The notes below the pieces were generated by a model. It was given only the letters and a program-made list of their open reading frames with translations. It had not been told where the DNA came from and did no database searches. A program made the position numbers and the translations under genes. A stretch of 64,000 nt of DNA from Rhodovarius crocodyli (GTDB lineage: Bacteria > Pseudomonadota > Alphaproteobacteria > Acetobacterales > Acetobacteraceae). Of this stretch, positions 53,541 to 58,972 are shown one piece after another. Where the stretch lies: the NCBI RefSeq assembly GCF_004005855.1, contig NZ_SACL01000002.1, positions 186,001 through 250,000 on the forward strand. Reading direction: 5' to 3'. Positions within the stretch are counted from its first letter, which is position 1; each line of letters opens with the position of its first letter.

Positions 53541-54344
53541 CTATCGGGTGAACAGCCCGCCGCGCGGGCCCATGCTGCCCGCGATCAGCGGCCCGGCCGC
53601 GCGGTTGGTCATGAAGATGGGGCCCGGCGGGCGCGCGGCGGTGGTGGCCACGGCCACGGCGGGCGGCGTCGGGCGGATCGCCACCACCGGGTTGGCGCGA
53701 TAGGCATCCAGGCCCCGTCCGCGTCCGGGCTGGGCTGCCGGCATCACCTGCACCTGCTCCGCGCGGTTGGACAGCATGGCGGGCGCCGGGGCAGGCGGGT
53801 CGGGGCTGCGCTGCTGCTCACCGGTCCAGGCGGCCAGCACGCGGGCGCGATAGCCTTCGGCGCGTTCCGGGGTCTGGGAATGGTAATGGCCGGCCGCCGT
53901 TTCCCAACTGCCGCTGCGTTCATACAGCGTGTTCAGGAAACGCGCCGCGTAGCGGGCATTGATGGTGGGGTCGAAGGCATCCTCCAGGCTGGGAAAGGCC
54001 GAGGCGTGATGGTGCAGGTTCACTTGCATGCAACCCACGTCGATGATCCGCACCCCGCGCCCCTGCAATTCGCGCACGGCGGCAATCGCTGCCTGCTTGT
54101 CCGGGAAGAATCTGCCCTGCCCCTCGGCATTGATGACCCAGGGCCAGGGGCCGACCTCGCCGGTTTCGGGATTCCGCCGCCCGGATTCGACCCGCGCGAT
54201 GGCCTGGAGGAGCCCCACCGGCAGATTCAGCTCTCGCTCGGCGGCGGAAATCGCAACCCGGCATTGCGCGGTAGGATTGGCCTGCGCAAAGGCCCCCGGC
54301 GCCAGGGCCAGAAAAAACAACAGGATGGCTGACATATTCCGCAT
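53541..54344 (-). CDS. Exported lytic transglycosylase domain protein
   Basis: A 267-aa secreted SLT-domain protein that would cleave peptidoglycan glycan strands. The ATG at 54344 gives signal NMSAILLFFLALAPGAFAQ; GTG at 54356 and ATG at 54335 are also in frame. The catalytic Glu53 is in LLQAIARVESGRRNP and the motif GCMQVNLHHH follows, then the AARFLNTLYERSGSWETAAGHYHS helix region. The last 90 residues are Pro/Ala-rich and low-complexity, possibly a flexible wall-spanning tail. It stands alone between urtE and the sRNA locus. Confidence 0.9.
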   Translation of the reverse strand: MRNMSAILLFFLALAPGAFAQANPTAQCRVAISAAERELNLPVGLLQAIARVESGRRNPETGEVGPWPWVINAEGQGRFFPDKQAAIAAVRELQGRGVRIIDVGCMQVNLHHHASAFPSLEDAFDPTINARYAARFLNTLYERSGSWETAAGHYHSQTPERAEGYRARVLAAWTGEQQRSPDPPAPAPAMLSNRAEQVQVMPAAQPGRGRGLDAYRANPVVAIRPTPPAVAVATTAARPPGPIFMTNRAAGPLIAGSMGPRGGLFTR

Positions 54345-54426
54345 GGAGACCGCCACGCAAGCCGCGTGCCATGGGCATCTCTCATGTTTTGGGACGGAAA
54401 TTTAATGGTGCGATGCGAAAAGTCGC

Positions 54427-54455
54427 TTGCACACGAACGATCTCTCCCGTATATC
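54427..54455 (+). promoter_or_regulatory. Sigma-70-type promoter of the sRNA
   Basis: TTGCAC (54427-54432), a 17-bp spacer and TATATC (54450-54455). Both boxes are close to consensus with ideal spacing. There is no protein gene downstream on this strand, only the sRNA, whose first base is expected near 54462-54463. Confidence 0.65.
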
Positions 54456-54462
54456 CGTCTTC

Positions 54463-54545
54463 AGCAACCGAGGGTTCTCCCTCGCTTGCCTTTCTTGGAC
54501 GTTTCCTCCCTAAACTTGGCGGGCCTTGTGCCCGCCATTTTTTTT
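54463..54545 (+). ncRNA. suhB/mmgR (alpha-r8)-like small RNA
   Basis: About 83 nt with its own promoter and terminator in a gap between two minus-strand genes. The 5' hairpin is GCAAC CGAGGG TTCT CCCTCG C TTGC (54464-54488). A single-stranded linker follows with CTTGGACGTTTCCTCCCT (54494-54511), carrying the anti-Shine-Dalgarno motif TTTCCTCCC. Then AACTT and a rho-independent terminator GGCGGGC CTTGT GCCCGCC ATTTTTTTT (54518-54545). This order matches what I recall of the suhB/mmgR family of alphaproteobacterial sRNAs, which in rhizobia base-pair with mRNA start regions via Hfq. The family match is by memory; the RNA gene itself is well supported. Confidence 0.75.
54518..54545 (+). terminator. 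Intrinsic terminator of the sRNA
   Basis: Perfect 7-bp stem GGCGGGC/GCCCGCC, 5-nt loop and a tail of A followed by eight T residues, ending 10 bp before the stop of the opposing TctC gene. The best classical rho-independent terminator in the window. Confidence 0.85.
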
Positions 54546-54555
54546 GCCCGCCACC

Positions 54556-55539
54556 CTAGTTTTCGGGGCGCAGGCCCGTCCGGCGCACCATGCCGCCCCA
54601 GCGCGTCCATTCCTCCTGTACAAATCCCCAGAAGGCTTCCGGTGTCATCGGTTCCGGTATCGCGCCTTCATCGGTCAGCCGCGCCAGCACTTCCGGCTCC
54701 CGCAGGGCCTGGGCCGCGGCGGCCTGCAGCCGGGCCAGGATCTCGGGCGGGGTGCGGATGGGCGCCATCAGCCCATACCATTGCAGCGCCTCGAAGCCCG
54801 GGATGACCTCCGCGATGGCCGGAACATCCGGCAATTGCGCCAGCCGGTGACGGGAGGTGACGCCGATCGCGACCACCCGCCCGTCGCGCAGGGCGGGCAG
54901 GGCGGCGGGCGGGCCGGTCATGCCGGAATCGATGTTGCCCGCCACCAGGTCCAGCGCCATCGGGCCGGAGCCGCGATACGGCACATGGACCATCTTCAGC
55001 CCCGATGCGTCCAGGAAGCTCGCCATGCCGATATGCACGTTGGAACCGGCACCGGCCGAGCCATAGGTGAAGGCGTCCGGTGCCGCGCGCACGCGGTCCA
55101 TGAAGGCGCGCAGGCCCCCGGCGGCCAGTTCCGGCTTTGCCAGCAGCACCATGGGCACCTTCGCCACCAGGCCGATCGGCGCGAAGTCGCGCATCGTGTC
55201 GTAGCGCAGGCGGGGATAGACATGCGGGTTCACCGCAATGGTGCCGATCATGCCGATGCCGATGCTGTAGCCGTCCGGCGCGGCCAGGGCCAATTGCTCG
55301 GTGCCCACGGCGCCTGCCGCGCCGCTGCGGTTTTCCGCCACCACCGTGCCGCCCAGTGCCGGGCCCATGGCCTGGGCCATGACCCGGCCCATCAGGTCCG
55401 TGGCGCCGCCCGGGGCGGCGGGGATCATCAGGTTGATGGGGCGGCGGGGCCAGCCGGGCTGCGCCGAGGCGGGCTGCGTCACGGCGGGGGCGGCGAGCAG
55501 CGTGCCCGCCAGGGCCCGGCGCGTATGGGTAATCGGCAT
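54556..55539 (-). CDS. Tripartite tricarboxylate transporter substrate-binding protein (TctC/Bug)
   Basis: A 327-aa binding protein with signal HTRRALAGTLLAAPAVTQPASAQ. Family segments INLMIPAAPGGATDLMGRVM, VVAENRSGAAGAVGTEQLAL, GSAGAGSNVHIGMASFLDASG and HVPYRGSGPMALDLVAG are visible. It lies 78 bp downstream of a TetR gene on the same strand, but a CCGGGC/GCCCGG stem near 55553-55568 lies between. No TctA/TctB neighbours. Confidence 0.93.
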   Translation of the reverse strand: MPITHTRRALAGTLLAAPAVTQPASAQPGWPRRPINLMIPAAPGGATDLMGRVMAQAMGPALGGTVVAENRSGAAGAVGTEQLALAAPDGYSIGIGMIGTIAVNPHVYPRLRYDTMRDFAPIGLVAKVPMVLLAKPELAAGGLRAFMDRVRAAPDAFTYGSAGAGSNVHIGMASFLDASGLKMVHVPYRGSGPMALDLVAGNIDSGMTGPPAALPALRDGRVVAIGVTSRHRLAQLPDVPAIAEVIPGFEALQWYGLMAPIRTPPEILARLQAAAAQALREPEVLARLTDEGAIPEPMTPEAFWGFVQEEWTRWGGMVRRTGLRPEN

Positions 55540-56267: not shown

Positions 56268-56310
56268 ATTTCTGCCTTGCGCGTCCGAAACGCCGGATGC
56301 AACTTCCGAC

Positions 56311-56328
56311 TGAACTGAACGGTTCAGT
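56311..56328. promoter_or_regulatory. TetR operator, site 2
   Basis: TGAACTGAACGGTTCAGT, ending 5 bp before the start codon of the HlyD-like gene and containing the odd palindrome CTGAAC-G-GTTCAG. It is inverted relative to site 1 and covers the position where the ribosome site and early transcript should lie, so binding would block expression of the pump. Confidence 0.7.
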
Positions 56329-56333
56329 AAGCT

Positions 56334-57410
56334 ATGCCCGACGCCCTTCCTCCCCCCTCCAAGACCGCCCCCGGCAAGCCCGCCCAGGCCGAGAAGAAGC
56401 GCAGCCCGCTGCGCACGGCGCTGATTGCCGTGGTGCTGCTGGGGGCCGCCGCCGGCGGCGGCTGGTGGTGGTATTCCGGCCTGGGCTGGGAGACGACGGA
56501 CAACGCCTATCTGGCGGGCGACATCTCGCCCCTCTCGGCCCGCATCGAGGGCGACGTGGCCGAGATCATGGTCGCCGACAACGCCCCCGTGACCGCGGGC
56601 CAGCCGCTGATCCGGCTGGAGGACGCCGATTGGCGTGCCCGCCGCGACGCCGCCGCCGCGACGGTGGCCGACGCCGAGGCCAGCATCCAGACGCTGAACG
56701 CGCAGCTCGGCCAGTCCCGCGCGCAGCTGGTCGCCGCCGAGGCCGCGGTCGCCCAGGCCGATGCCGCCCGCGTGCTGGCGGTGCAGGAGGCCAGCCGCTT
56801 CGGCACGCTGGCCAGCTCTGGGGTCGGCTCGCGGGAACGCGCGGAGCAGACCCTGGCCGAGCGCCGCCGCGCCGAGGCCGCCCAGGCCGCCGCCGATGCC
56901 CAGCGCCTGGCCGCCGCCGCCGCCATCCCCGTGATCGAGGCACAGACGCGCTCGGCCGAGGCCAAGTTGGAGCAGGCCCGCGCCAATCTGGTGCTGGCGG
57001 AAAACAACCTCTCCTACACGGTCATCCGCGCGCCCTTCGACGGCTTCGCCGCCAATCGCGCGGCCCAGCTGGGCCAGCATGTGCGCGCCGGGCAGTCGCT
57101 GATCGCCGTGACGCCGCCGCCCGCGAGGCAGTGGCTGGTGGCCAATTTCAAGGAAACCCAGCTGGCGCGGATCCGCCCCGGCCAGCGGGCCGACATCACG
57201 CTGGATGTGGGCGACCAGCGCCTGCATGGCCGGGTGGAGAGCCTGGCGGGGGCCACCGGCGCCCTGTTCAGCCTGCTGCCGCCCGAGAACGCCACCGGCA
57301 ACTTCACCCGCATCGTCCAGCGCGTGCCCGTCCGCATCGAGATCCTGGACCCGCCGGCCGGCCTGCGCCCCGGGCTTTCCGCCCGCGTCTCCGTCGAGGT
57401 CGGCAGGTGA
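56334..57410 (+). CDS. HlyD/EmrA family membrane-fusion protein
   Basis: A 358-aa periplasmic adaptor of a multidrug pump. One N-terminal membrane segment (TALIAVVLLGAAAGGGWWWY) is followed by the lipoyl-like TTDNAYLAGDISPLSARIEG, a long Ala/Gln/Glu-rich coiled-coil hairpin (about residues 90-220) and the second half ENNLSYTVIRAPFDGFAANRAAQLGQHVRAGQSL. It links the EmrB-type transporter to an outer-membrane channel. Its stop overlaps the next gene by GTGA, and TetR operator site 2 lies just upstream of the start. Confidence 0.93.
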   Translation: MPDALPPPSKTAPGKPAQAEKKRSPLRTALIAVVLLGAAAGGGWWWYSGLGWETTDNAYLAGDISPLSARIEGDVAEIMVADNAPVTAGQPLIRLEDADWRARRDAAAATVADAEASIQTLNAQLGQSRAQLVAAEAAVAQADAARVLAVQEASRFGTLASSGVGSRERAEQTLAERRRAEAAQAAADAQRLAAAAAIPVIEAQTRSAEAKLEQARANLVLAENNLSYTVIRAPFDGFAANRAAQLGQHVRAGQSLIAVTPPPARQWLVANFKETQLARIRPGQRADITLDVGDQRLHGRVESLAGATGALFSLLPPENATGNFTRIVQRVPVRIEILDPPAGLRPGLSARVSVEVGR

Positions 57411-58972
57411 GCACGCCCGCGGAGCCGGAGATCACGCCGAAGCGGCTGTTCGGCTTTTTCGCCATGGTGCTGGGCATGTTCATGGCGGTGCTGGACATCC
57501 AGATCGTCTCGGCCAGCATCGCGGACATCCAGGCGGGCCTTGCCGCCAGCCCTGACGAGGCCAGCTGGGTCCAGACCAGCTACCTGATCGCGGAGATCGT
57601 GATGATCCCGCTCTCGGGCTTCCTGTCCCGGCTGCTGTCCACCCGGGTGCTGTTCACCATCTCGGCCCTCGGCTTCACCGTCTTCTCCCTGACCTGCGCC
57701 CTGGCCAATTCGCTGGAGATGATGATCTTCTCCCGCGCGCTTCAGGGCTTCCTGGGCGGGGCGATGATCCCGACCGTGTTCGCCAGCAGCTTCCTGCTGT
57801 TTCCGGGCCCCGCGCGGGTGCGTGCCACGGTGCTGATCGGCCTGACGGCCACGCTCGCGCCGACGCTCGGCCCGACGCTCGGCGGCATGATCACGGAAGC
57901 CCTGTCCTGGCACTGGCTGTTCCTGCTGAACGTGCCGGTCGGCATCTTCATCGCCATCTCTGTCTGGCTCTGCATCGACATCGACGAGCCCGACCACTCC
58001 CTGTTCCGCCTTTTCGATTGGTGGGGGCTGGTGCTGATGGCGCTGTTCCTGGGCAGCCTGGAATATGTGCTTGAGGAGGGCGCGCGCTGGCAGTGGCTGC
58101 AGGATGAGACGGTGGCGAGCTTCGCCGTGATCGCGACCGTGTCGGGCATCGGCTTCTTCTGGCGCGCCTTCGCGGCCGAACAGCCGATCGTCGACCTGCG
58201 GGCCTTCGCGGACCGCAACTTCGCCATCGGCAGCCTGTTCGCCTTCATCCTGGGCATGGCGCTCTATGGCTCGGTCTACCTCGTGCCGCTGTTCCTGGGG
58301 CGGGTGCGGGGCTACGACTCCCTGCAGATCGGCCAGACCATGTTCGTCACGGGGGCTGCCATGTTCGTCTGCGCCCCCATCGTGGGCGCGCTGTCGCGCA
58401 AGCTGGACCTGCGCATCCTGGTCGCCTTCGGCCTGATGGTCACGGGCGTGGCGATGTACCTCACGGGCCAGTTCACCGCGCAATCGGCCCTGCCGGAGCT
58501 GTGGCTGCCGCTGCTGCTGCGCGGCGTGGGCATGATGTTCGTGATGGTGCCGGTAACGACGATCGCGCTCGGCACCTTGCCGCCGGTGCGCATCAAGAAT
58601 GCCTCGGGCCTGTTCAACCTGATGCGCAACCTGGGCGGTGCTTTCGGCCTCGCGCTGATCAACACGCTGGTGACCGACAGGGGGGCGGCGCATCGCCTGC
58701 ACCTGGCCGAGGGGCTGGGCTGGGCCCGCAATGAGGCGGTGGCGGCGCTGACCAACATGCAGAACGCCTTCGCCGACAAGATCGTGAACGGCGCGCCTTC
58801 GGATCTGGTGGCGCTGCGCCGGCTGTCGCAGCTGGTGACGCGGGAGGCCAATGTCCTGGCCTATAACGACACGCTGTTCGTGATGGCGGTGTTCTTCTTC
58901 GTGGCGGCGCCGCTGGTGTTCCTGCTGCGTGCGCCGCGCGCGATGCCGCCGGGCGAGGGCGGGGGGCATTGA
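57407..58972 (+). CDS. DHA2-family MFS drug efflux transporter (EmrB/QacA type)
   Basis: A 521-aa transporter with about 14 membrane segments. It starts at GTG 57407 in a GTGA overlap with the adaptor gene; the longer frame upstream is a shadow. FFAMVLGMFMAVLDIQIVSASIADIQ and ASWVQTSYLIAEIVMIPLSGFLSR near residues 15-70 are EmrB hallmarks, as is TLAPTLGPTLGGMITEALSWHWLFLLNVPVG. It uses the proton gradient to export hydrophobic compounds. An AT-rich hairpin repeat follows the stop by 24 bp. Confidence 0.94.
   Translation: MSTPAEPEITPKRLFGFFAMVLGMFMAVLDIQIVSASIADIQAGLAASPDEASWVQTSYLIAEIVMIPLSGFLSRLLSTRVLFTISALGFTVFSLTCALANSLEMMIFSRALQGFLGGAMIPTVFASSFLLFPGPARVRATVLIGLTATLAPTLGPTLGGMITEALSWHWLFLLNVPVGIFIAISVWLCIDIDEPDHSLFRLFDWWGLVLMALFLGSLEYVLEEGARWQWLQDETVASFAVIATVSGIGFFWRAFAAEQPIVDLRAFADRNFAIGSLFAFILGMALYGSVYLVPLFLGRVRGYDSLQIGQTMFVTGAAMFVCAPIVGALSRKLDLRILVAFGLMVTGVAMYLTGQFTAQSALPELWLPLLLRGVGMMFVMVPVTTIALGTLPPVRIKNASGLFNLMRNLGGAFGLALINTLVTDRGAAHRLHLAEGLGWARNEAVAALTNMQNAFADKIVNGAPSDLVALRRLSQLVTREANVLAYNDTLFVMAVFFFVAAPLVFLLRAPRAMPPGEGGGH

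Follow-up and report, generated by a model that had tools for sequence, protein, structure and literature searches.

Organization of the locus

The analysed stretch (hereafter the window) comprises 64,000 nucleotides of the Rhodovarius crocodyli contig NZ_SACL01000002.1. Between two genes on the minus strand it contains a plus-strand gene for a small RNA, with the following features:

53541..54356, minus strand: divergent gene for a lytic transglycosylase with an SLT domain (Pfam SLT)
54403..54423, no strand assigned: PhaR/AniA-type box TAATGGTGCGATGCGAAAAGT, palindromic consensus WNWDDNYGCRNYGCRNHHWNW, 21/21 positions of the S. meliloti consensus
54427..54432, plus strand: -35 element TTGCAC (read from the sequence; CTTGC is largely kept there in aligned orthologues)
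54450..54455, plus strand: -10 element TATATC after a 17-nt spacer (read from the sequence)
54464..54489, plus strand: 5' stem-loop, GCAA/TTGC and CGAGGG/CCCTCG (RNAfold)
54481..54551, plus strand: match to RF00519 (suhB/mmgR), whole model 1-77 (cmscan, 57.2 bits)
54502..54511, plus strand: seed or anti-Shine-Dalgarno TTTCCTCCCT, identical to the alpha-R8 core 10-mer of PMC12559287
54517..54545, plus strand: intrinsic terminator with an 8-bp stem, a 5-nt loop and eight T residues (sequence and fold)
54556..55539, minus strand: TctC receptor gene flanking the sRNA gene

The initial annotation had proposed a suhB/mmgR-like RNA with a promoter and terminator of its own, on the strand opposite both flanking genes, and each of these elements was found in its stated position. 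The promoter TTGCAC-N17-TATATC can be read directly at 54427-54455, and from this promoter alone transcription is expected to start near 54462. The anticipated 5' hairpin is well predicted; the 5' segment (the 32 nt before the core) has a median z of -2.88 relative to shuffles and falls below -2 in 87 of 119 related copies; RNAalifold, run on a MAFFT alignment, missed the 5' stem of the sRNA. The anti-Shine-Dalgarno segment is present, but its fully unpaired state was not borne out, as a weak 3-bp hairpin in the single-sequence fold leaves three of the ten seed bases with an unpaired probability of 0.31-0.48. The seed is invariant in all 40 aligned copies, which were picked by an exact pattern covering the seed or its neighbourhood. 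The terminator consists of the stem 54517-54524/54530-54537 followed by the T run at 54538-54545, and its stem shows compensatory changes across the 40 copies of the alignment.

That the locus is a mere leader or a decayed copy, or that its transcript acts in cis, is a most improbable reading, considering that the sRNA locus has its own promoter and terminator, lies opposite both neighbours and matches the family model over its full length.

Membership of the suhB/MmgR family

At gathering thresholds, cmscan returned a single match in the whole 64 kb, to RF00519. Its score of 57.2 bits (E 3.9e-9) exceeds the gathering score of 41, so that a chance match is unlikely. The predicted RNA carries an internal UUUCCUCCCU downstream of a hairpin, with the seed partly single-stranded in the fold, between its own promoter (54427-54455) and rho-independent terminator (54517-54545). 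The order of 5' hairpin, anti-Shine-Dalgarno segment and terminator, which the initial annotation had named as that of the family, agrees with the alpha-R8 description in the accessible part of PMC12559287. The assignment to RF00519 is secure, and the predicted RNA of 54462-54545 is a further copy of the known family alpha-r8 (MmgR, SisA-D). The SorX model (RF02784) reached 32.6 bits at the sRNA, below its gathering score of 46.6. The AbcR (alpha-r15) RNAs are 114-120 nt long and have two anti-Shine-Dalgarno motifs (PMC7143759, as far as available), whereas the predicted RNA of about 84 nt has one TTTCCTCCC and fits RF00519.

The expected conservation in relatives was found as well: 42 of 60 sampled genomes, the own genome included, have a match to RF00519 at E <= 0.001, and 40 of the 60 have one above the cut-off. 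A search of named genomes for one exact 27-mer gave at least 118 stretches, copies that share ancestry. The named matches listed are mainly from Acetobacteraceae or from bins of unclassified Proteobacteria or Rhodospirillales, and a few sit in bins labelled as other phyla, possibly mislabelled. The own genome has a second match above the cut-off (C45:190521-190596, minus strand, 57.0 bits), the neighbours of which we take to be proS and the gene for RNase J. Two suhB copies were also seen close together within one record in L106 and L115, with two exact 27-mer matches each, and in L131, with two upstream regions.

The neighbour most often kept with the window-type copy is the SLT gene. A tblastn search found an SLT match in 21 of 51 sRNA loci, and among the 118 copies listed from named genomes the gene is divergently upstream in 63.

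A PhaR-type box upstream of the promoter

The S. meliloti consensus for PhaR is given as WNWD2NYGCRNYGCRNH2WNW in the available part of PMC12542648. The segment 54403-54423, which lies a short way upstream of the -35 element and was also recovered by a pattern search of the own genome, fits all 21 positions. For Bradyrhizobium the consensus TGCRNYGCASMA is reported, with phasin and pdhA sites (PMC6201568, partial text).

Of the 118 copies listed, 115 carry the core box in the 130 nt upstream, compared with a mean of 25.75 in dinucleotide shuffles and 28 of 118 in a downstream control. The full 21-nt box occurs within this distance in 42 (shuffles 0.15). If the count is limited to the stretch immediately preceding the -35 element, a zone that was set after the box positions were known, 106 of the 118 copies have the core box (mononucleotide-shuffle mean 0.64, maximum 4), as do 46 of the 52 sequence clusters. 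No box is present in either zone in five copies. A second PhaR-like box at the -10 element or start, about 40 nt before the 27-mer, is present in 45 of the 118 (L050, L054, L118 and others) and absent from the window copy; it resembles the mmgR box of S. meliloti. Within the genus, all eight window-type copies have the box versus none of the eight paralogues near the presumed proS, a count that excludes seven lower-scoring or mis-centred loci without a proper seed core. The second copy of the own genome (L002, G000:C45:190521-190596) is retained within the genus and lacks a PhaR box, and its upstream region carries a conserved block of its own. Of eight genomes from outside the taxonomic family in which a core was recognised, six carry a box no more than 150 nt away from one or more of their copies. 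Its position varies, and the evidence is weak because a width of 150 nt gives a fair number by chance.

The box could in principle belong to the divergent SLT gene rather than to the suhB-family RNA. The annotated start of the SLT gene (54356) is just 46 nt away, this gene is the neighbour usually seen, and 62 of the 63 SLT-linked copies listed have the box. However, of the 45 copies listed that lack an SLT gene although more than 900 nt of upstream sequence is present, 36 retain the box, and its core is separated from the TTG of the sRNA -35 element by 9 nt in 70 of the 106 boxed copies. The common spacing and the retention in SLT-less copies speak for a role of the box at the RNA, and we consider service to the SLT gene improbable. 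In the aligned upstream regions of SLT-linked copies the block before the -35 element is conserved, and the sequences of the promoter spacer and of the 5' stem have drifted apart. Judged from this conservation, control of the sRNA by PhaR is likely.

The putative PhaR regulon and co-occurrence of PhaR with the sRNA

The own genome encodes PhaR (PF07879 at G000:C22:299390-299572) and has two PhaC matches; with a consensus match at its promoter, the sRNA gene is thus a predicted member of the PhaR regulon. The full consensus occurs at 29 sites in this genome versus 18 for the reversed pattern, and therefore many of these sites are due to chance, the consensus being loose. Of the 25 sites inspected among the 29, several are inside ORFs, and intergenic boxes precede two Phasin_2 genes and the genes for PDH E1 alpha, HU and a MarR protein, among others. 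The AccA gene shares one box with a phasin gene. Three full-consensus boxes, 20 nt apart, precede a gene for a short-chain fatty-acid transporter (L416, G000:C44:85324-85384).

PhaR (PF07879) is present in 43 of the 60 genomes. The sRNA and PhaR occur together in 40 of these 60 and are both missing in 15; five genomes have one alone, namely the sRNA in G017 and G048 and PhaR in G045, G051 and G057. For the 36 genomes of the same family, including the own, the corresponding numbers are 31 with both, one with the sRNA only and four with neither. This co-occurrence tracks phylogeny, and related genomes are not independent. PhaC_N was found in 40 of the 60 genomes, the own among them; some genomes with PhaR as well as the sRNA lack it.

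Predicted targets

The perfect 10-mer complement of the seed, AGGGAGGAAA, occurs at eight places in the own genome (reversed control: one): in the two sRNA genes, at three places directly before an ATG and at three elsewhere. The three sites before an ATG belong to genes for a TctC protein (leader at G000:C46:139497), an SBP_bac_11 protein (C33:600737) and a 2-hydroxyacid dehydrogenase (C47:93157). Sites with an ATG 0-8 nt downstream gave 57 rows in 36 genomes, versus 19 for one permuted pattern. Removal of 13 rows outside the taxonomic family, one double and one sRNA antisense left 42, of which 38 have an ORF of at least 80 aa.

Since the seed complements resemble Shine-Dalgarno sequences, some of them are mere ribosome sites, and two Shine-Dalgarno-like patterns served as controls in genomes of the same family: AAGGAGACA, for which 57 of 58 distinct places were examined (46 with an ORF of at least 80 aa), and AGGAGGGAAA (14 places, nine with an ORF). 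A further control, AAGGAGGT-N-ATG, had an ORF of at least 80 aa at only 15 of the 30 loci inspected and was left uncounted because it contained too few real genes. Solute-binding proteins make up at least 18 of the 38 seed-site ORFs versus at least 6 of the 55 control ORFs, and TctC proteins (phmmer) 9 of 38 versus 0 of 55. The Fisher p is about 2e-4 for each excess, with few genes involved and a control that is diluted by ORFs that look spurious. The Pfam families were taken from the matches listed, the best 25 of 66 for the controls and the best 25 of 35 for the seed sites, and 20 chosen proteins were rescanned singly, so that further solute-binding proteins were possibly missed on either side. 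The energies of full-length duplexes (RNAduplex) did not separate targets from controls. Repression of uptake proteins by the sRNA is plausible, in view of what is reported for SisA of Caulobacter (see below). The own genome contains at least 110 TctC receptor genes (202 candidates), by our estimate some 2 percent of its genes, if not more, the one at 54556-55539 of the window among them.

Alternatively, the suhB-family RNA may have the targets that have been proposed for MmgR, namely phasins or further PHB genes, in which case the excess of solute-binding proteins would reflect no more than a habit of their ribosome-binding sites. The S. meliloti mutant has more PhaP1 and PhaP2 (PMC7143759 and PMC8401924, both in part). 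However, the two other Shine-Dalgarno-like patterns in the same genomes do not show a comparable share of solute-binding proteins, and none of the eight 10-mer places in the own genome is a perfect seed site before a phasin gene. We therefore hold this alternative to be rather doubtful.

A putative link between carbon storage and nutrient uptake

The observations suggest that a carbon-storage regulator switches the sRNA and that nutrient-uptake proteins may thereby be turned down. More specifically, PhaR would repress the sRNA when the storage polymer PHB is scarce. Upon formation of PHB granules PhaR would be titrated away and the sRNA would be made. Together with Hfq, its UUUCCUCCCU seed would then mask the ribosome-binding sites on a number of mRNAs, notably those for periplasmic solute-binding proteins (TctC, TRAP, ABC), so that with full carbon stores fewer uptake proteins would be made. 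On balance we consider it probable that the locus encodes such a trans-acting suhB/MmgR/alpha-r8 RNA, repressed by PhaR, released by PHB and repressing mRNAs for solute-binding proteins. More tentatively, genomes of Acetobacteraceae may each have one alpha-r8 copy that is tied to PhaR as a gauge of PHB, such that full stores lead to repression of the expanded repertoire of solute-binding proteins and storage acts back on uptake by way of an RNA, with the other copy freed from PhaR.

The proposed circuit is new in its detail and of a kind already known. The nearest relative is MmgR of S. meliloti (alpha-r8, RF00519), which matches the same covariance model as the window RNA and has a promoter with a PhaR box of the same type. 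In S. meliloti mmgR is among the PhaR-bound sites in EMSA, and titration of PhaR by PHB is supported (PMC12542648, available part), whereas here the box is a sequence match. The position differs too: the MmgR motif is placed between -35 and -10 in the part of PMC8401924 at hand and 13 nt before the start in the table of PMC12542648, whereas the window box is upstream of the -35 element. The effect reported for MmgR is on phasins, not on uptake (PMC7143759 and PMC8401924, accessible parts), and the portions of PMC12559287 and PMC7143759 available describe MmgR as without a proven direct target.

With regard to targets, SisA-D of Caulobacter crescentus (alpha-R8) are the closer parallel. According to the available part of PMC12559287, they share the UUUCCUCCCU seed, this 10-mer pairs with mRNA leaders in Caulobacter, and SisA uses it to repress transporters, TonB receptors among them. 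As here, there are multiple copies with unrelated promoters and transporters among the targets, those of the window RNA being predicted. The same source links SisA-D to FGase and includes TonB receptors among their targets, whereas the window RNA is linked to SLT and its predicted targets are solute-binding proteins. Predicted repression of solute-binding-protein mRNAs via an anti-Shine-Dalgarno motif is what the window RNA shares with AbcR (alpha-r15).

That the alpha-r8 RNA has kept a PhaR box across Acetobacteraceae, a group distant from Sinorhizobium, points to an old link from PhaR to alpha-r8, and the predicted solute-binding-protein targets offer direct tests of its purpose. In the literature, of which our coverage of journals was partial, we found nothing fitting on a connection between PhaR, alpha-r8 and uptake in Acetobacteraceae.

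No CrfA-like sponge was identified for the window RNA, in which it differs from SisA-D. As a possible sponge or antisense RNA we considered G000:C22:61409-61422, a perfect complement over 14 nt that is antisense to the leader of what is presumably dapD, and took it as a chance match. As far as compared, the matches to this 14-mer in 36 genomes are in sRNA genes by position, save this one and G016:C2:327591, and in no other member of the genus does it occur outside the sRNA. Elsewhere in the window, the plus-strand genes of HlyD type and MFS type at 56297-58972, beside a TetR gene on the minus strand, look like an efflux pump with its regulator.
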